Source of the DNA: Planoprotostelium fungivorum
Lineage: Eukaryota > Evosea > Variosea > Cavosteliida > Cavosteliaceae
DNA length: 39,523 bases
Reading direction: 5' to 3'
NCBI GenBank assembly: GCA_003024175.1
Contig: MDYQ01000242.1
Location: forward strand, 1-39,523
The notes beneath the pieces were generated by a model. It was not told the origin of the DNA, ran no database searches, and saw nothing but the letters and a program-made list of their open reading frames with translations. Below, piece after piece: positions 8,101-30,500 of the stretch. How positions within the stretch are numbered: the first letter of the stretch is position 1; each line of letters opens with the position of its first letter. The translations under genes and the position numbers were made by a program.

Positions 8101-10765
8101 TCCAAACTGAACAAATCGATGTAGATACCAGCCGACATCGCCTACGCATTCTCTCTCTCGTACTTGGACTTGTCGAACAATCGACTCAATGGTCGCATCA
8201 CAGCTCTGTCTGGCCTCACTAATTTGAACCACATTGATTTGGGGTGAATTCGATCGAATCGAACACTTCTCACTCGAAACAGTTCGAACCAATTCGAAGG
8301 ACAAGTTCCACCGCTACGCAGTAATCCACAGATGATCGACGTCAGTAACAATCGATTAAGTGGATCCATCACTTTCATCAACAGCCTCGATGCATTGAGA
8401 GTCTTAGACTTACACAACAATTCGTTCAGTGGCAGCGTCAGCTTGCTGTCGAAAAATGCAAAGTTGATCTCGCTGGACTTGTCACACAATTTGTTCAACG
8501 GATCGCTGGATGTAGGACTTTCGAGTCAGATCGTTCACGTCAACGTCAGTCACAACAATATGACGGGATCGATTTCCATCGGGTCGACGTCACTTCAAAC
8601 GATCGATGCCAGTTATAACAGGTGAGGAACATGACTGATCATCATCACGATCATCATCACGATCATCATCACATACATCTCACACACTTAGTTTCACCAT
8701 CGTCGATTCTCTCGATGTCTATCCAACCACCACCACCTGTGATCTCTCCACGAACAACCACATCGAATGTCCCTTGCCTTGGTCCGTCTTATCTCGATGC
8801 AACGTCCCCCGCTGCATCGTCAGCAACTCTACCACTGCCACCGTCGTCTTTCACATGGAAGGACAAGTGTCATCTTTCGACCGCATCAAATTCCTCGCAT
8901 CAATCGCCGCCATCACGAACAGCAGCTCGAATCGATTTCGCATCGACGATGTGAAGAGCGGCAGCGTCATCGCTCAAGTGTCGATTTCACCTCCATCAAG
9001 CGATGCCATCAACGAGGGATCTCCCATGCGAGTGGCGCAGCAGCTCACGACCCTGAGTCAGACGTCACGTGACGTATTCTCCACGGAAGGTATCGATCTC
9101 ATCGATGATATCACCGCCCCGGCCCCCCAATCGAGCAACAGCGATGGAAAGATATCATCAGGTGCCATCATTGGCATTGCCGTGGGCTGTACTGTCCTCC
9201 TTGTATTGGTCATCGTCATCAGTGCCATCATCATCCAGCAGAGGAACAAGACGAGATTGCATCGAAACAGTCTCATCGCGATCGATCTATCGCAGATCAA
9301 TTTGGGTGCGGCAAAGAAGAGCATTGTAGATCACACGGAGCTGAAGGACTTGAACATGATTGGTTCCGGAGCTTTCGGTGTCGTGTTCAAGGCAAAGTGG
9401 AGAGATATTTCCGTGGCAGTGAAGCAGGTGAGAAGAAAAAGTGGACGGAGGGTGATGGAGACAGATCAAAGCGGAGTACATCACAGAAGAACAGTTGAAA
9501 GCTTTCTTGAGCGAAGTGGCCATACTGCAGGGCTTACGATCACACCCGGTGAGTTTCATCGATATGTCCGAAAATCATATTTTATTTCGTTTTCAAGTTT
9601 TTGACTCGCCACAGAACGTCGTCCTCTTCATGGGTGTGTAGAAATATGCGACGTGTCGTCTTAGCGTGACACGCGATTGACATGCGACAGGTGTTACCTT
9701 TCCACCTCAACCTCTGAGTATGATCACTGAATTTTGCGGCGGCGGCAGTCTCTTCGATTACCTGAGAAAAAACCAAGTCAACTGGGAAACGAAGCTTAAA
9801 TTCATCCAAGGCATCGGTGAGGATTAAAATACGATATATCCTATTTTTATTCTTTAATTTTCGTATTCGATAGACAGAAATCGATGTGAAATTGACGGAG
9901 AGTACAGCTGTGGGAATGCTCCATCTTCACATGGAGAAGGTGATCCACAGAGATCTCGCCGTTAGGAACATCCTCCTCACCGAACATCTGGTGCCCAAGG
10001 TAGCCGATTTCGGTATGAGCAGGTGAATGATCGTGCATCACGATCACATTCGATTGACCGAACGACAGGGAGCAGCAGACGGAAGATGCAGGCACCACAC
10101 AGGTCAGTCTTCTTCATCATGATCTCATCATGATCTCATCATGATCTCATCATGATCTCATCATGATCTCATCATGATCTCATCATGATCTCATCATGAT
10201 CTCATCATGATCTCATCAACTGACTCGAAATAGAGTTTGGTCGGACCACTCAAATGGATGTCTCCCGAAGCCATACAGAAATCAGAGTACTCCACCAAAT
10301 CAGACGTCTTCAGTTTCGCCGTCACAGTGTGGGAGATCATCACAGGTGCACCTCCCCCGATCATCATCACGTCACATTTTAAAGACATCAACAGTTCAAG
10401 ACCCCTGGCCTGGGATGAGTGGAGTCGATGCCGCTATCGCTGTGACGCTGGGAGATCGAATGCCCATTCCTGAAGGAGTCGAGCCAGGCATGGCCGATCT
10501 CATCGAACGTGAGCTCGTCGCATGATCCATCACGTGCGGTTGACACGTGTGGACAGAATGTTGGCAAGCAGAACCAGACAGGAGGCCCAACTTTAAGAAC
10601 ATCGCACAGATGCTGTCATGCAACACCGAAAAGGAGGCGGCGTCAGATGAAGTTCAAGTCTTTCAGAGAAGCACGAGCGATGAGAGCGACATATCACAAG
10701 CAGCACCAGAGTACGAGCCTCTATCTCAAAATACCAACTACACCACACCTTTGGGACAAGTGTAA
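5179..10765 (+). CDS. Leucine-rich-repeat receptor kinase with tyrosine-kinase-like catalytic loop (TKL group)
   Basis: Large gene with many short introns. Exon 1 encodes a signal peptide ([19 protein letters not shown]) and a Cys-containing LRR cap ([12 protein letters not shown], 'WNHTGWDN...CNFFGVTC'). From 5470 to about 8625 come many plant-type LRRs, such as '[14 protein letters not shown]', '[16 protein letters not shown]' and '[13 protein letters not shown]'. A membrane-proximal domain (about 8690-9110) precedes a single TM helix at about 9160-9235 ([22 protein letters not shown]). The kinase follows: glycine loop [14 protein letters not shown] lysine, '[10 protein letters not shown]', HRDLAVRN (near 9945), DFGMSR and [16 protein letters not shown] and KWMSPEA resemble tyrosine kinases, whereas NVVLFMG resembles Raf/TKL kinases. 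All catalytic residues are present, so it is probably active. Ligand unknown. The tail is acidic with several Tyr. Start chosen for the signal peptide. Confidence 0.88.
10116..10214 (+). repeat. 11-bp tandem repeat, 9 copies, inside a kinase-domain intron
   Basis: Nine uninterrupted copies of ATCATGATCTC, starting at 10116 and stepping by 11 to 10214, with a partial tenth. The array fills most of the intron between the codons for 'TTQ' and '[11 protein letters not shown]' (about 10101-10233), making it roughly three times the length of its neighbours. The copies are identical, so the array is young or homogenised. Each unit holds the palindrome ATCATGAT. Confidence 0.95.
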
Positions 10766-18530: not shown

Positions 18531-18837
18531 CGAGTTTGGCGCTGTTTACTATCGTTGTTGTTAGGAGGAGCGGTTTGGTCTATTCTAATATCGAAAGAGA
18601 ATGAATGAAGTGAAGCTGTGGTATTTTGTCGTTATAGTTTTCGATGACCTCGAAATCACAGCAACGAAGAGAGCATCAGATCCTTCGAATGTTTCTTGTG
18701 CCAAGACGGATTTGAAATCAAGAGGTATGTCATGAATGTAGTGATGATCTACGCCTTGGATGAAGTAATCAGACGGAGTCATCTGTCTCTGGGCTGAGAA
18801 GCAGACGCTCCTTTTTGTACACTACCCCTGAACTCTC
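18531..18837. other. Gap between MYCBPAP and the sacsin-like pseudogene, with one small minus-strand ORF
   Basis: Contains a 65-codon minus-strand open frame at 18585-18782 (starts MTPSDYFIQGVDHHYIHDIP). It has protein-like composition but no recognisable domain, no clear upstream exon and no related copy in the window. It could be a small gene, an exon remnant or chance. I do not call it a gene. Confidence 0.25.
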
Positions 18838-19945
18838 ATGGCTCTCACGTTTCGACCGCATGCTAGCGAAGAGACAGATCAACGTCCATTGTGGCTGATG
18901 ATGGAGACAGATCGTCACGGCTTCGGAAGTCTAGCAGTGGTTGGAGAACTGCGAGCGCAAGCTCTCAGATGCAGAATCGACCCATTTGACACCCAGAACA
19001 AGACAGTACATCAAGGTCAATCCCAGGAGAGGTGGGGCAGTCTCGCTGACGAGAGAAGGCTTACCGTAGAAGTGTCAGGGCACAAATCAAAGTGGGAGGA
19101 GCACAGGAGACGATAGTCTTTAGCAAGAACTTGTCCACCACATCTATCCTATCCGTGACATCGAGCCAGCAGACCTCAGCGCAAGCGGCCTCAAACGACA
19201 CGTGAGGAAGCAGAATAGATACAATTTTCTCTCTCCATCCGATGTCATCCCTTCAAGTACTACCATCGAAACGGACAGATGATGACTGCCGCACAAGTCG
19301 CCGTGTTCGATCGACCACCTGTCGTACTCAATTCACTGAAATAAGTGCGACATTTCATCCGTCATGATCTCACCTGATGACGATCGGGTGATCACCAGGT
19401 CTCTTACATCACGACGCCCATCGACGAGGCGATGGTCATTCAATTCGGGGCTAGACCGATGGATCCCATACAAACATTCAAGAACCTTTGGGCTCAAGAT
19501 AAATTCACGCTCCATCATCAGATGGCGCATCGAATGTTTGCCTGCGAAATGAATTCTTCTCCCTGAGCCAATCGGTTGACCCCAAATCTGCCCTTGTCGC
19601 TTGGACTGTCCTTTCATCTCAAGAGAAGTCATCGCTGCTCGACTTCCCATCGAGGTGCACGTGCGGAAGCTGAGATCAGACGATGTCATCCATCACCTAG
19701 AATCTATCGGATCCAACAGAAACGACAGGATGCACAATACTCTGTACAAGGAGATCGCTATATGCTTGCAGTGGATCACGAAGAACGGAATGAAGAACAT
19801 TGTGAAGCTAAAAGCGATGTGATCACATCGATCGTGACATCGACGTTTGACACCTCGTCGGCTGTGAATCATCTACAACGTAAAGTGCGGAATGTGGGTC
19901 ACCGGCTTCTTTCTTGTGTGAGTAGTCACCACTTCTCTTCTTGAC
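18838..19945 (+). pseudogene. Decayed, internally deleted copy of the adjacent sacsin-like gene
   Basis: Three blocks align in order with the intact gene at 20130-25467. Block 1 (about 18965-19090) matches 21205-21330: 'GCAGAATCGACC', 'AACAAGACAGT', 'CATCAAGGTCAA', 'CGCTGACGA' and 'GTGTCAGGGCA' recur with substitutions. Here ACAGTACATCAAG has one base more than ACAGTCATCAAG, which breaks the frame, and CCGCAG has become CCGTAG, a stop. Block 2 (about 19395-19545) matches 23040-23165 ('VIQFGARPMDPIQTFKNLW' against 'AIQFGAKAVDPIDTFKKLW'). Block 3 (about 19570-19822) matches 23770-24030 ('NTLYKEIAICLQWITKNG' against 'GTLYREISECLKWIDKFG'). About 1.4 kb and 0.6 kb are missing between blocks. The GHKL ATPase part was never copied or is lost. 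No open frame covers more than one block. Confidence 0.8.
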
Positions 19946-20129: not shown

Positions 20130-23100
20130 ATGGTCCTCACCACAGACCTAAGACAAGAACAATCCTTTGAAGTCACTGTCAGGAATACCCTCGCCAAGTA
20201 TCCATTCGGAATAGGTGCATTTCAAGGTGACTCATCTCGTATTCAACGTCTTTTTCATCCAATACGCAGAGTGGATCGCGAATGCAGATGATGCAGGAGC
20301 CAGAAGGTGTCATGTGATCTTCAACGCAGACAGAGGATGGATCGACATCTTCAACGACGAATACTTTCGAGACGAGAAGAGAGATTGGCAAGGATTTACC
20401 AAGAACATCGGTAACAGTGGAAAGAAAGAGAATGTCAATGCCATTGGTGGGCATCCGAAGTGTTCCGCATGCATACATCCAACATTTTGTCAGGAACTTT
20501 CGGACTAGGAGCGATCACCATGTATCACCTCAGCAACGTCATCGCTGTGGTCAGCGGAGACAAAGCACTTCTCTTAGACTCCTTCAGGAAAGAAGGTCTG
20601 GCGAAGAAAGGCTTGGACGGTAGCGAGGTCAGCCTGCACGGCGAGTTCAAGGGAGAGAACTTGCAGCGATTCAAGATGTTCCAGCCCATCGTGGAACAAG
20701 AGGAAGAGGCCAAGTGGTCCGAGAATCAAAGATACCCTGGCACTCTCATCGCGTTGACTCTTCGCACGAAAGGAAGTGAAGTCAAGCCCATGGTAAGGTA
20801 GCCACGTGAGACATCCGATAACGCTGGTGGCAGTGCATCATTGTGGCTGAAGTGAAAAAATGGTTGGAAGATTGTGGCAGCAGACTCTCCGGTATGTTGA
20901 TCTTCCTCAGACACCTGGAGGAGATCAAGATAACCATCATCGAGGTGACCCGACATTGTAAAATTGAAATATTGAACGATATAACAGGGCAATAGGAAGT
21001 CCATCTACAAAGCTGCCATTCAACCTGATGACCATCAAGTGATCCCTACCATCCCATCTTGTCGCTGATCGTCATCAGGTCAACAGAGAGACATTCAGAC
21101 AACTTCGTTCGAAGAACCCAATCGATTACCTACACTACCGCATCACCATCGACAGCACCTGCCCCACCGATGCTCTCTCCAGAGAAAAATTTCTCATCGT
21201 CAACGGCAGTGGCAGAATCGACCAATTCGACAACAAGAACAAGACAGTCATCAAGGTCAACCCCAGGGGAGGCGTGGCTGTCTCGCTGACGAAAGAGGGC
21301 ATACCGCAGAGGTGTCAGGGCAAGGCGTACACATTCATGCCCATCTTGAAGGACGATCTCAACCTGCCCGTGCATGTGAACGGCATGTTTGAGCTGAACG
21401 ACAATCGTACTGATTTGTGGATGATGTCGAACGATGACAGGACGAGGTGGAACATTTTTCTGTTGGAAGAGGTGCGTCATACAAATATGTGATGGTGAAT
21501 CACATGGACAATTGACTCTTCGATAGATCATCAACGTGCTTTGGGCCAGGGCATTATTGGTATTAACTCAAGATGTGGTGTGTAAAGACGTCAAGATCGA
21601 TGAATGGTATTCTCTGTGGCCCCACAGTGGCATCGGTGCACCCTGGAACAAGATCGCTACAAAGATGATTCCATACCTTAAGTCCTATCCCATCAGCATG
21701 TCGTACGGTGAAGATAGACAGTGGATCTATGCATCAGATAAAATCTTAGTCACCAGTCACACATGGAAGGGCCAAGCAGAATTTCATATGGGTGGGACAG
21801 AATCTCAACATCTGGGCTGACAATGCGTCAGTTGAATCGTTGGCCAAGATGGGCATCTTGGTCGTGGATGCACCGAAGGACACAATCACTCAGCTGACAG
21901 GAAAAGAGGACAGACAGTTAGTCAAGGCAAACAGGAGTTTCATCAAGGAGCTCCTACTCAATCATTACAAAGCGAGAATTTTCACCAGTCTGATCTGTAG
22001 AGATCTCATCAACCTCTTAGAGGGCGATCTGAGTGGATTACCTGTCGTGCCCCTGTCTAACGGATCGTACACCACGGATAAGACGAAGTACAAGATGTGG
22101 AAGCAAGCTGGACTATTGCCTCTAGTAAGCATCGAATCTTATTACCATAGATTGAGATCTGTAGACGTTTCCAGATCTGGTGTACATCAAATCGGAAGAT
22201 GCCGCCGGCAATCCACTCAAGTTTTTGGAAAAACACATGAATCTCCAGTGGGCATCCATCAATGATGTAGTTGTAGCCGTTCACCCAGATCACAAGAGGT
22301 CTGGCTTTTTCAGAGAAGACGAAACACTTTCCTCAGATCAGAGAACTAGAGTGATGATGCATAGATGAGATCGAACTGAACGGACATAGATCATCGACAT
22401 ACTGAAGAAATTCTCTCAGCGGAGTGATCAAATCGAAAATCTTCAGCTGGTTGAGTTGACGAACGGTCAGGTCTGCAATTTTGCCACGGCGAAGTGCGTG
22501 AGATCGATTCGCTATTCATAAACCTACTCAGGACTGTGGGTTCTCGCTGAACGCCACAGGTTCAAAGTCCTCTTCGCAGATTCAAAATTGGATGAACACA
22601 TCAGACAAGCCATCGATCTCATGGGTTTCTTACAATGCAAGAATCTGGAGGACGTGCACAAGATCTACCCCGTCAATAAAATCGAACCGTGCGATCTGGT
22701 AGCCAGCGGATTAGAAGATTACCTGAAGAGATCGAGTGAGTGCATCCTTACATCAGATTTCCACCGTTCATATCCTCGCAGATCAAGACATCAGTTGCTT
22801 CTTAAGGGATCCTAAGAACGCCTGCGTACTCCAGTGTCTGATGGAATCGAAGCAGAAGGAGAAGTACATCAATAATCTGTCCGGTTGCAGTATCATCCGA
22901 ACTCAGAGCGGACACATGTTGTCAGCATCCGAAGTGAAAGTCTTTTTACCTCCTTCCGTCAAGATTGCCTCGCTAGACCAAGTGATTTGATTTCACATAG
23001 TTTCGAATGTGACACGTCCAGGTCCTCTCTCGTATCTTCCATCACCAGTTACCTGCCGACAGGAAGATGGCAATTCAGTTCGGTGCCAAGGCGGTAGACC

Positions 23101-25467
23101 CCATCGATACTTTCAAAAAACTGTGGGACGAGGGTAAATTGACACACGAAGATAAGGAGAAGGTGGCGAAGGAGATGTGCACTTGTTTCAACCTTCGGAA
23201 CGATTTCGTGAGGTGAGAAAATGAACTGAGATGAGACCAAATAGAGGACAGCTTCTTGAGGGACAGACCTTGTGTTTGGGATGGCAATCAATTGCTACCG
23301 ATGAGTCGGTTGACGAGGTCTGCCGATCTCTCCGGAATATTGGGACACGGTTTTCTGCCTCACAGTTGGGTGGAAGTGCCCGTAGATGTACTTCACAGGT
23401 TAGGTCTTGAAAGTGACCTCATTCCTATCATTCCATCAGTTCTGGACGATTATCCAGAGCGAGCATCTCTGGTGAGGAGTCGAACCATTCTGAATAAGAG
23501 ATGTGACAAAGTCCATGATACGATAGATGGTTTGGATGATACATTGATGGAACGAGGTATTACAATGGTTGTCCACGGTCCAAGACATAACGAAGATCAA
23601 AGATCTGAAGATCTTCAAGGCGATGCCACACACTGGCCCCCACGAGACGAGGTGAAACCCTCGACGCATCTATCCTTCCATTGTCTCACAATGATCAGCT
23701 GGCGGCTTCAATTCTTGCCCGACAACCAAAACCGATTCTTCTCCTTGACTGAACTCGTTCGCCCCGATTCTGCCACATCTGCTTGGACGGCCGTCAGTTG
23801 TATCTCGACCGAAGCCTTCACATCTCATCCAAAGATCTCACAACACTTGAAGATACTCTCACCAGATGATGTCATGGAACATCTGCTCAACATCGTGAAT
23901 CGCATCATCCCCGTTCACGGAACGAACGAGATGATGTACGGGACACTCTACCGAGAGATCAGCGAGTGTTTAAAATGGATCGATAAGTTTGGTGTATTGA
24001 AAATTGTAACCAAGCTCAAGACGGTGAGATACGGGAGACGATCCTCAAGTAACGATCAAGCAGTTGAATATCGTTCACAACGTAAATCAGAAGAAGTGGA
24101 TGACCCTCGATCGCATCGATTTCGACATGAACGAAGATGACGAAGATGAAGAATTTACCGTGAGTAAGATTCTATTCCATCGATACGATGGACATCATGA
24201 TAATAATCAAACTCGCAGGTGATGTTGCCAGATTATCTTAAGCCGTTCGAATCTTTGATGGCAAGATGTGGATTCGCTCGGTCTGTTGCGTCATTGAGTG
24301 TGAAGATCAATCCTCCACCGAAACCGAAGCCCATGGTTTACCAATTCGAGAGGTTGCGAGCTGAAACGAACGTTTTAAATGAAGAATCAATAGGTTCTTC
24401 ATGAAGAAAGAGATGGCCGACGTATTTTATGTCTGGGAGGAAAGAGAAATACCTGCACACAAGATTATCCTGGCTTGTCATTCAATTCGCTTTATGACAC
24501 AATTTGAAAAATTTCACGATCATCGTGTCTTGTTGAAGACGGAAGAAGAATTTCATGCCATGCAGAAGATCATGCGGTGAGAAATGTCACACAGCAGACG
24601 CCAATTCATCCATGATAGATACCTCTACACCGGCATTATGGATGATCCTCATCAAGAATTCGGTACTATTTTAGAACTGAGCAGGATGTACATGCTATCA
24701 TCGGTCATAACGGAGTTGGAGATCGCGATGTTTCCTCGATGCAGAGGATTGAGAGACGTCGATCTCCTCCACCTCTTCGGTTACGCGAAAGATTACAAGA
24801 TGGACGCGTTGAAAAGGTGTTCTCCGTCGATCGAACGTGATTGACGCTCTTCAGATACGTCAAAGCCCTTTTAGAGAAGAAGAGGGAAAAGATGGTCCAC
24901 AAGACAAATTTGCACATGTATTTGGACGTGGATCCTGAAACGTTGGTAGAGACTCTGGGCGTTGAATTTGCACTTCGAGTGGATGCTGTAGGTTTTGTCA
25001 AAGGGTATCAACGCGACAACAAGAAGATTAATTTTGAACTTGACGAAGAGCTCATCGGATTTCCGAAAGAGGAGGCTCCGAGAGACCTAAAGCTTCAAGT
25101 CAAGATGAAGACGGAGAAGGAAGTCAATGCGCATGTTCCAAAGACCAAAACTGCACCGAGTCGCCCGAGTGATCTCCACAGCAACCCGACCGTATCTATG
25201 AGACAAACTCAGGTAAGAGGGAACGTGATTTTGAATCAGACAATGAACGATGCTCAGAGACCCCAGCAGGCGCCAGTCAAGAAGGCTGTGGCGACCCCTC
25301 CAATCGCCTTTGAAATGACGCCCCGTAGGGGGGCGACACAACAAGCCGAAACGCAAGTACCAGGATACAAAACCAAAGATTGTATCTACTTCCTCGAAGG
25401 AAAATGTTTCAAGGGAGACAACTGTACTTACATCCACGACAAGCAGAAGAAGCCGTATTATAAATGA
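20130..25467 (+). CDS. Sacsin-like GHKL-ATPase protein fused by splicing to BTB/POZ and CCCH zinc finger
   Basis: Long multi-exon gene. The N-terminal exons give 'SFEVTVRNTLAKYPFGIGAFQ', then 'EWIANADDAGARR' (the GHKL N-box, as sacsin's ELIQNADDAGA), 'WQGFTKNIGNSGKKE' and 'GTFGLGAITMYHLSNVIAVVSGD' (G-box region). This is the sacsin repeating region, related to the Hsp90 ATPase. It continues with 'LPVHVNGMFELNDNRTDLW' and 'LLEEIINVLWARALL', again as in sacsin. Later parts (22000-24150) are divergent. A 41-nt intron (about 24355-24395) joins 'MVYQFER' in frame to 'FFMKKEMADVFYVWEEREIP' and 'AHKIILACHS', a BTB/POZ domain (to about 24840). A helical and polar region and a terminal CCCH finger (CIYFLEGKCFKGDNCTYIH) end at 25467. 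Sacsin family members act as co-chaperone-like scaffolds with ubiquitin links. If the 41-nt intron is wrong, the BTB-CCCH part is a separate gene starting near 24402. Confidence 0.75.
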
Positions 25468-27567: not shown

Positions 27568-30500
27568 TCACTTGAGGAGACCATTCTGACTGTTTCTTGG
27601 ACTAACGTTCTGTCCCGACAGCAACTTCCCACTGAGAGATCTGACCAAAGGTGATTTCAACTCTTCCTCCACCTTCACGGCCTCCTTCATCCTCTGTTCG
27701 ACTTGTAATGCCATCTGTTCGCACGTCATCCCTCCTTCCATCTCTTCCTCTCCATCTCACCTTGACCCTGAGGTTCTGGTGGATGCTCATCAGACGTTTG
27801 AAAGAATGTTTCTTCAGCTCTAATACGACAGTTTGGTCTTCGTTCGCGTAAACGGAGGCAGTGCGAGGGAGCCCAGTTAAGACAGTCACCTCTCCAAACA
27901 TCTCTCCCACTCCCAGAGTCAACAGGATCCTCGGTGTTCCATCTTCACCCATTCTCTCCAATCGAACGGAACCCTGCAGATATCAGCCATGATGAGACAC
28001 AACTTGATGACGTGATGATCGATGATGATGTGATCATGTTGCAATGAGGTTGTAGGTGATGATGTTATGTTGATCGTGATGATAATGATGACGGTGGATA
28101 ATGACAATACCTGTTTGATGAGAAAGAGGCTCGCATCCCGATCTCCTTCCTTGATGAGTATCGAGTCCTTTGAAAAAATCCTCGGCTCCTCCAACATGGC
28201 CGCAATCGCATTGATCTGTTCCGTGTTCACATCCTTGAACAAGTACGTCTCGCTCAGAACTGATCGCACAAACTCTCTGTTCCTCGTGATCTTTTCGATG
28301 TCGTAATCGATGCGAGACTCTTGCAGCTCATCCCTTCCACTCTTCAGCCTTCCTCCTCACGTTTCATCACCTCTGTATGATGTTGCGGAAGGTCTCGGCA
28401 GTCATAGTGAGTAGATGAGTTTCAGTCTTTGCGATGACGTTGGCAGCTCTGGGTATGAGTCTGGCCATTCGAAGTGCATTTTCACCGAAGGCGTCGCCGC
28501 CGCGGAGTGTGGCGGTGGTCTCTCCGGTCTCTTCGTCGGAGACAGTGACGGTTCCTCGCTCGATGATGAAGAAGGAATCGGATCTGGTCTTAGCGGTGAT
28601 GATGACGTGACCGGCGGGGACCTGTGTTCTTTCGGTTATATTTTGGTCGTGATGACGATGTCGAGCGTGATGTTCTTCGTGATGATGATGATGCTCACGA
28701 TGACGAGTCGGAAATCAGTGTAGAGGCTGTATAGTGTAGGTGGAGAGACTTTACGGAAGAGAAATACTTCGCTGATCAATTTGAACCTCCTGCTGGCGAG
28801 ACAGTAACCCTCCTATCAATACCAATGAGAAATGGTGTGATACGAGAGAAAACCGAAGGAGCACGAGATGAAAATTCACCTCGAAAGGTGGGACGGGTAG
28901 ACGTATGGATTGATCTAATCCACATTCTGGGATTCTCAGATCAGTGACAGGCACCGTAACCTTCTTTCCATTCATCAACTCCTTCTCGACTGCGGTACTG
29001 TATCAGCCTCTCCTCTCCTTCCTCGCTCACCCGTGGGAGGTATCTGTGCACAGTGCACGACGACCATCTTCTTCTTGATGGAACGAGGTAGCTCGTTCAG
29101 TGTGGCGATGGATGTGTGGATGGGAGGCACTCCTGATTCGTGGATGATGAGATCGGCATCGAAGACAAACATTCGAAGGGAGATCTGATGTCATCACGAT
29201 TTCGTCTTCTCTCGCGATGACTTCACCTCTCTCTCCGGACTGATCACTTTTCGCTCTCTCAAATCACTGAACGTCTGATTTCTCTGTCAGATTTCGACAC
29301 GAAAGGATGAGAAATAAGCAGAGTGTTTTGCGGAGAGATAAAGATGAGAGAGGACGTACCTTTGGATCGTAAAACGTGTCGCTCGAGTAAGATATCGATT
29401 GACCTGCGTAAGATACTTTGAATCGAACAGTTGGAATGGTGTGGAAGCTGTAATCAAACTCAAAGAGGGCACCAGCGATGGGCATGGGTAGTCCTGATGG
29501 ATTCAGAAGAGAGAAGAGGAAACGTTCGATATACCGATGGATACGGGGATGAAATGATAGTAATCTGTGATGTTGAGCCCAGTCGAAGCGTTCATCTTTC
29601 TGACGTAGCTCTCGTGTACGGTCTTCGTCGTGTACAATTCAATCTTCTCTCCCGTGATGATCTTTCGAATGATACCTGTCTCTCATCACACTCTGCATCC
29701 ATCGTACATTTCTACACGCTACCTGAATCATGATCGGAGTGACAGTGAGTCAGAATCACCTTATCCACGATGGATGTTTTAATTCCCTGTGAATGGAGGT
29801 AGTCTGTCGTCTGCACCGGAGGATCTACAACGATACCTCTCCCGTTGATCCAGATGATGAATCCTACTCTGCCTCAGTATGTGTCACGCGAGAGGGATGA
29901 TCACCCGTAGTGTTTCCGTTCTTGTCAAATCCATGACTGGTACCGAGGAAGGTGACGCCGAAGGTGGGCGGCTCGAATGTACATTCGGGAAGCTGGGCGA
30001 CTTCTTTCTTCTCGCTCTGATGTCCTCTCGATTGGTAGATGTTCGTGTCCACTGCGGCCGTGTATCTTGGACGTCGTCAGATTGTATGGAGATCTGGATG
30101 AGGAGACTTACTTTCCGTTCTCGTAGAATCGAATCAATCCATCGAGGTTGGCAATCTTGAGCTCTTGCTTCTGTCCGTCTTCTGTTTTGCGTCAGTCTCT
30201 TCTCTTTCTCGTGAAACTATCGTGATCACTAGGTGAGATGATATACAAATGAAGTTGCATCGTATTCAGAGGAATGTGTGGAAGACAACGAGACGTGTGG
30301 TATCACCTAAATCTTTTGTGATGGTAGCGATACCGTTCTCATCGAACGGAAGGAAATTAGCGAAATCGGTCAATTTTGCGGAGCTTCCATCTTTGTTCTT
30401 GTGAGCTAACGCGTCCCTATTCAACGTCACACACAATATCATCCCATTCACGAAGAAGAGTCTCTTATTGTACAGATGGGATGGACGTGTATGTCTACAT

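Follow-up and report, generated by a model that had tools for sequence, protein, structure and literature searches.

Sacsin, a protein of 4,579 residues with described internal repeats (PMC3629688), combines a UBL domain, three Hsp90-like units, a J domain and a HEPN domain, and versions carrying DEATH domains occur in some animals (PMC3710099). There is continuing debate over ATP binding and turnover by its Hsp90-like units (PMC9880540), and one proposal has sacsin acting, via its HEPN domain, on protein as well as RNA (PMC3710099). Here we describe a gene of Planoprotostelium fungivorum in which a single sacsin-type unit appears to continue into a BTB/POZ domain and a CCCH zinc finger. It lies on the plus strand at positions 20130-25467 of contig MDYQ01000242.1 (assembly GCA_003024175.1), of which positions 1 to 39,523 were analysed (hereafter the window). 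Our best reading is one spliced gene encoding a sacsin relative with a single sacsin repeating region (SRR); a BTB domain extended by a 3-box-like stretch follows it, and a CCCH finger closes the chain at the C-terminus. The predicted chain is a new arrangement of domains within the known sacsin/SACS (GHKL, Hsp90-like) family.

Like the SIRPT (SRR) unit of sacsin, the window protein starts with an sr1 Hsp90-like ATPase followed by an sr2-type region, and its ATP-site residues are largely kept. Unlike sacsin, it has one unit rather than three, a BTB domain and a CCCH finger follow, and similarity to srX or sr3 was not detected. A sacsin orthologue would carry three SIRPT units with J and HEPN domains; this chain has one SACS domain and no DnaJ, HEPN or UBL match in Pfam (E <= 1 for DnaJ and HEPN), so that it appears to be a relative rather than an orthologue. 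The SACS domain (20172..21002, plus strand, exons 1-5, residues 15-233) matches Pfam PF25794 with E 4.5e-25 and 89.3 bits against a cut-off of 32.8, and the best sequence matches in the Protein Data Bank (PDB) are the sacsin Hsp90-like domains 5v47 (1.6e-12) and 5v44 (6.2e-11), these crystal-structure sequences aligning to residues 18-235. When the protein was mapped through the 5v44 alignment onto the positions that Table 1 of PMC9880540 calls invariant between Hsp90 and sacsin, with the human residues located by motif, eight of the ten were kept: Glu33, Asn37, Asp40, Ala41, the three glycines of IGTFGLG and the threonine of PGT. The equivalents of human Asn160, Phe164, Asp168, Ser178 and Lys180 are likewise kept.

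The part between the SACS and BTB domains had been called a divergent middle, and Pfam indeed gives no match there at E <= 1, for srX or sr3 or otherwise; residues 325-378, however, match a tandem-SACS gene of the same genome on contig C150 (41% over 54 aa, E 3e-9). For srX/sr3 likeness the comparison with that gene gave nothing better than E 0.5. Residues 325-378 hold an sr2-type motif, VNGMFELNDNRTDLW (21376..21420, plus strand, residues 345-359), aligned to a stretch with VHGSFAVQSNRSSLW in the C150 gene, and its candidate catalytic-loop residue Arg355 would be the counterpart of human Arg474. The C150 gene, the strongest SACS gene of the genome, thus shares with the window gene a SACS domain plus an sr2-type motif, but has two SACS domains on its contig and no BTB match among the matches listed or in the 10 kb from position 10000 on (one strand, three frames). 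A SACS protein of the DUF3684 type (PF12449) on contig C211 is similar in its SACS-type N-terminal ATPase and differs in its DUF3684 body, which GAF-domain matches follow; the 10 kb scanned there on one strand gave no BTB match.

That SACS, BTB and CCCH follow one another in a single chain, as the original prediction had it, is well supported, both by Pfam, which returned SACS, BTB and zf-CCCH in this order on our first gene model, and by the open spliced frame. Joining GT-AG introns by frame gives 22 exons and 21 introns between the ATG at 20130 and the TGA at 25465-25467, encoding 1454 aa on the plus strand without an internal stop, so that the start, end and strand of the predicted frame are retained. 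Introns are 37-85 nt long (median 42 nt, n=21), and removal of 20 of them is obligatory for an open chain because each, if retained, shifts the frame or brings in an in-frame stop. The join itself was expected at a normal-size 41-nt intron at about 24355-24395, and we place it exactly at 24353-24393 (plus strand, GTTGCG...ATAG, phase 2); if it is retained, the frame stays open until the TGA at 24402-24404, the read-through stop foreseen near 24404. In the spliced chain the nearest methionine is coded at 24401; the BTB match opens five residues ahead of it and two ahead of the join, which the profile thereby just crosses. Because the BTB match begins before the join, and because a second copy in the genome (below) keeps exon 18, the place and phase of the intron, the BTB domain and the finger, the fusion is more than a chance juxtaposition.

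Some parts of the model are softer than others. The first version had 1482 aa and 20 introns, and reached 1454 aa and 21 introns after comparison with the second copy, on contig C90 (relative to that version, the final numbering is 13 lower for BTB residues and 28 lower for finger residues). Intron 14 was drafted at 23511-23556 with a GTCCAT donor and then replaced by 23472-23556, a GTGAGA donor standing at the matching place in C90 (by eye). The probable linker intron at 25213..25257 (plus strand, 45 nt, in frame, GTAAGA...TCAG) was added after a 38-nt phase-0 intron was found at about the corresponding place in C90; it is the only one of the 21 that can be retained, and is therefore weaker than the others. 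Since both were placed to fit the paralogue, 23472-23556 and 25213-25257 are not independent evidence. The acceptors of introns 23472-23556 and 24024-24060 are GAG and AAG rather than CAG or TAG, and intron 22494-22559 was picked by frame, without support from the paralogue.

A genome search with the C-terminal part of the protein found one other locus, at 337934-339147 of contig C90, for which we built a model of 524 aa that begins at the counterpart of residue ~922 and runs through to the C-terminus; it carries both a BTB domain (1.8e-14, 54.2 bits) and a CCCH finger (22.9 bits) by Pfam. In the shared stretch, all six window introns are matched in C90 at the same place and phase (one is off by a single alignment column beside a gap), the linker intron being left out of this count as its C90 counterpart had served to place it. 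The six include the join intron, which in C90 is 46 nt long (GTGAGG...ACAG). The letters of the introns have diverged: each of the six alignments scores higher than the average of 200 shuffled versions, but none exceeds the highest-scoring one. The exons on either side are alike and under selection, and exon 18 (24219..24352, plus strand), the last sacsin-type exon before the BTB domain, keeps 57% amino acid identity over 44 codons with a ratio of nonsynonymous to synonymous differences (pN/pS) of 0.34. Across six successive exon groups the ratio is 0.41, 0.34, 0.39, 0.28, 0.51 and 0.34, and for the 81 codons around the join it is 0.34 (bootstrap 0.22-0.48), codon positions 1, 2 and 3 differing 20, 19 and 38 times. 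There is purifying selection between the two copies in every exon group on either side of the join.

The C90 copy thus backs the joining of the end of the sacsin-type region to the BTB domain, not the full fusion. A piece of its ATPase (residues 7-105) lies inverted directly downstream of the BTB-CCCH copy (L001 9236-9550, minus strand), which suggests an inversion or rearrangement; upstream of L001 7104 there is other sequence, resembling by eye part of a transporter gene, and a piece at L001 7104-7205, upstream of residue ~922, seems on visual inspection to be shifted by one base relative to the rest and was excluded from the comparison. At the 3' end of the coding region (window 25339-25467, L001 9023-9151), nucleotide identity between the copies is 84% over 129 nt, against 66% in the preceding match of 1306 columns; this unusually high value may reflect a conversion tract or constraint acting at the RNA level.

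The BTB domain (24345..24721, plus strand, residues ~1137-1234) spans both the join and the intron at 24577-24618, and its Pfam match (PF00651) has an E-value of 8.3e-13 and 48.9 bits against a cut-off of 20.5 (residues 1150-1247 of the first model), or 1.9e-13 when the C-terminal part is searched by itself. It is followed by a stretch (24722..24966, plus strand, interrupted by the intron at 24817-24854) that is by alignment like a 3-box or partial BACK domain. A two-sequence profile matched 13 PDB sequences, the best being KBTBD2 (1.2e-4) in one stretch over its residues 20-184, an alignment that covers the BTB domain plus the following stretch; further matches were KBTBD4 (2.1e-4), ZBTB9 (4.1e-4), PLZF (1.6e-3), ZBTB7A (1.8e-3) and a ZBTB17/NAC1 construct (2.9e-3). 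KBTBD2 and Cullin-3 occur together in PDB entry 8gq6. In the P. fungivorum genome, 29 exon matches point to several cullin genes, and by the best match of an exon on contig C364 to Cullin-3 (2.9e-35; next Cullin-4A, 9.9e-30) it is predicted to encode a cullin-3. KBTBD2 and KBTBD4, which are Kelch repeat and BTB proteins, resemble the window protein in the BTB domain, and KBTBD2 in the stretch after it as well; they differ in that no Kelch match was found in the window chain, where the sacsin-type region, which precedes the BTB domain, would serve as the substrate part. An AlphaFold2 model of the BTB domain was made from contiguous DNA, with the 42-nt intron 24577-24618 translated along with the exons in both copies and its TGA taken as W; it was unusable (mean pLDDT 40.2, pTM 0.26).

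The C-terminal finger (25366..25443, plus strand) has the pattern C-x7-C-x5-C-x3-H, which agrees with the C-x7/8-C-x5-C-x3-H of CCCH fingers and is kept in the C90 copy, and matches Pfam PF00642 at 21.6 bits against a cut-off of 20.5 (residues 1450-1474 of the first model), or at 23.9 bits when the C-terminal part is searched. As for its description as an RNA-type finger, the Pfam match lies only just above cut-off, and RNA binding is predicted from the type of finger.

Put together, these domains could let the protein serve a cullin-3 ubiquitin ligase as its ATP-driven substrate receptor of sacsin type, a mechanism drawn from what the families do and one to which we give an even chance. Clients that are misfolded or aggregated would be clamped by the sacsin-type region as it opens and closes, the BTB domain would dimerise and dock CUL3, and the CCCH finger would tether the complex to RNA or a ribonucleoprotein, where clients would be refolded or ubiquitinated. 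A further-reaching version, which we consider rather unlikely, is that this lineage has independently rebuilt the sacsin triad from a platform, a cullin-3-recruiting BTB domain and an RNA-binding CCCH finger, giving an ATP-gated ligase receptor for RNA-bound clients; in vertebrate sacsin the Hsp90-like platform has the UBL on the ubiquitin side and the HEPN domain on the RNA side.

Several observations weigh against this reading. At the N-terminal end, the NCBIfam sacsin domain (P_loop_sacsin) stays below cut-off, at 34.7 versus 50 bits, and two of the ten invariant ATP-site positions are altered (Leu to Trp34, Phe to Ala98). The window BTB domain searched alone against the PDB gave weak matches to seven sequences (KBTBD4 3.7e-4, KBTBD2 about 0.01), and zinc-finger or NAC1-type BTB domains make up six of the 13 profile matches, with E-values within about twentyfold of that of KBTBD2. 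The finger is a single one near the Pfam cut-off, and as the zf-CCCH profile also exceeds its cut-off in one of the 14 control genomes (E. coli), single matches at such a level are not proof alone. At the join, the GTT donor is unique among the 21 introns (the C90 counterpart has GTGAGG), and the C90 copy lacks the ATPase in its place, so that ATPase and BTB domain are intact together in one locus only. Copies of the gene also decay, with a broken tandem copy directly upstream.

The leading rival accepts the chain as real and ATP-driven but gives the BTB domain a role in dimerisation or scaffolding only, away from cullin-3, so that the protein would be a self-assembling chaperone or ribonucleoprotein scaffold; we regard this as possible, though on the doubtful side. 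Several BTB domains of the ZBTB/NAC1 type mainly dimerise, and it is those of ZBTB9, PLZF, ZBTB7A and NAC1/ZBTB17 that supply the six matches. At the presumed place of phi-x-E, the CUL3 contact motif of adaptors, the window protein has F-H-D and the C90 copy F-N-D. Yet the best profile match, KBTBD2, extends past the BTB domain and was solved with Cullin-3, and a cullin-3 gene is present in the genome. The label of "cullin-3-type adaptor" given to this domain in the original prediction is supported in part: the alignment with KBTBD2 and the cullin-3 gene speak for it, the six zinc-finger/NAC1-type matches against it.

The remaining alternatives question the chain itself or its use. It is very unlikely that two adjoining genes meet here, a sacsin-type gene ending at the TGA 24402-24404 and a BTB-CCCH gene starting at the ATG at 24401, even though a methionine is coded at the latter place in C90 too and the 41-nt intron can be read through without a stop before 24402. 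What speaks mainly against it is that this read-through is not a conserved coding end: in C90 a stop comes right where the intron begins, yet the intron has the same place and phase there, kept between exons under selection while its letters are hardly above background. Moreover, two aromatic residues precede the methionine directly in each copy (FF and YF), the BTB profile begins before them, and the two frames would overlap by three bases, so that neither a 3' end nor a promoter could be fitted in between. Just as improbable is a decaying gene without function, to which the broken tandem neighbour and the sole GTT donor among 21 introns would be congenial, since the frame of 1454 aa is intact and amino acid change is selected against in the stretch shared with C90. 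A somewhat less remote, though still improbable, reading makes the protein one of conflict or immunity, a duplicating and decaying sacsin-like gene, akin to those joined to other signalling modules in other eukaryotes, that would sense invaders and mark them for ubiquitination; the broken tandem copy and the rearranged C90 copy would suit it, as would the sacsin-like proteins fused to DEATH domains in a sponge (PMC3710099), but there is purifying selection between the copies and only one locus was found with all three domains.

In the debate on ATP use by sacsin's Hsp90-like units, a natural fusion of a single unit to a BTB domain would offer a small, testable version, with 1454 residues versus 4,579. 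Roquin has RING, ROQ and CCCH domains, with a RING instead of a BTB domain and without a GHKL ATPase. It is like the window protein in holding a ubiquitin-ligase module and an RNA-binding part in one chain (PMC4614863). The triad of platform, ubiquitin module and RNA module would parallel, by way of different modules, the proposed action of sacsin on protein and RNA through its HEPN domain and, if confirmed, would suggest that the coupling of these three functions was selected for rather than accidental. The statement that no protein with this order had been described agrees with our literature search, in which titles and abstracts gave no description of SACS with BTB or CCCH (UniProt and InterPro architectures, and automatic database annotations generally, lay outside it); the term BTB is also absent from PMC3710099, PMC9880540 and PMC3629688.

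The three families are each found elsewhere in the genome, in numbers that are lower bounds: at least 10 SACS matches on 8 contigs (4 over the curated cut-off), at least 24 BTB matches and at least 29 zf-CCCH matches at E <= 0.01. The SACS and BTB profiles gave nothing in the 14 control genomes. Among the matches listed, SACS and BTB share a contig only at that of the window (C194), and BTB and CCCH only there and at C90. In three pairs of contigs (C364/C391, C131/C277 and C35/C112) both members score identically for one of the cullin, BTB and CCCH families, and these contigs are possibly duplicated or haplotypic in the assembly. For the C-terminal part (residues 1095-1454), to which this search was confined, no relatives were found in viral or bacterial/archaeal contigs (tblastn at E 1e-3, starting from two peptide patterns each); the ATPase part was not sought there, and other eukaryotes lay outside the search.

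In the window, the tandem copy upstream of the gene (18790..19903, plus strand) is a degenerate, partial repeat of the sacsin-type region, made of pieces of residues ~166-1076 with missing stretches and stops, and no BTB or finger match was found in it. No Rfam family and no tRNA were found in the window. A neighbouring gene carries a cyclic nucleotide-binding domain at 27602-27982 on the minus strand (PF00027, 1.4e-12), and at 10092-10240 there is an array of an 11-base repeat, unit TCATCATGATC, with about ten copies in register.

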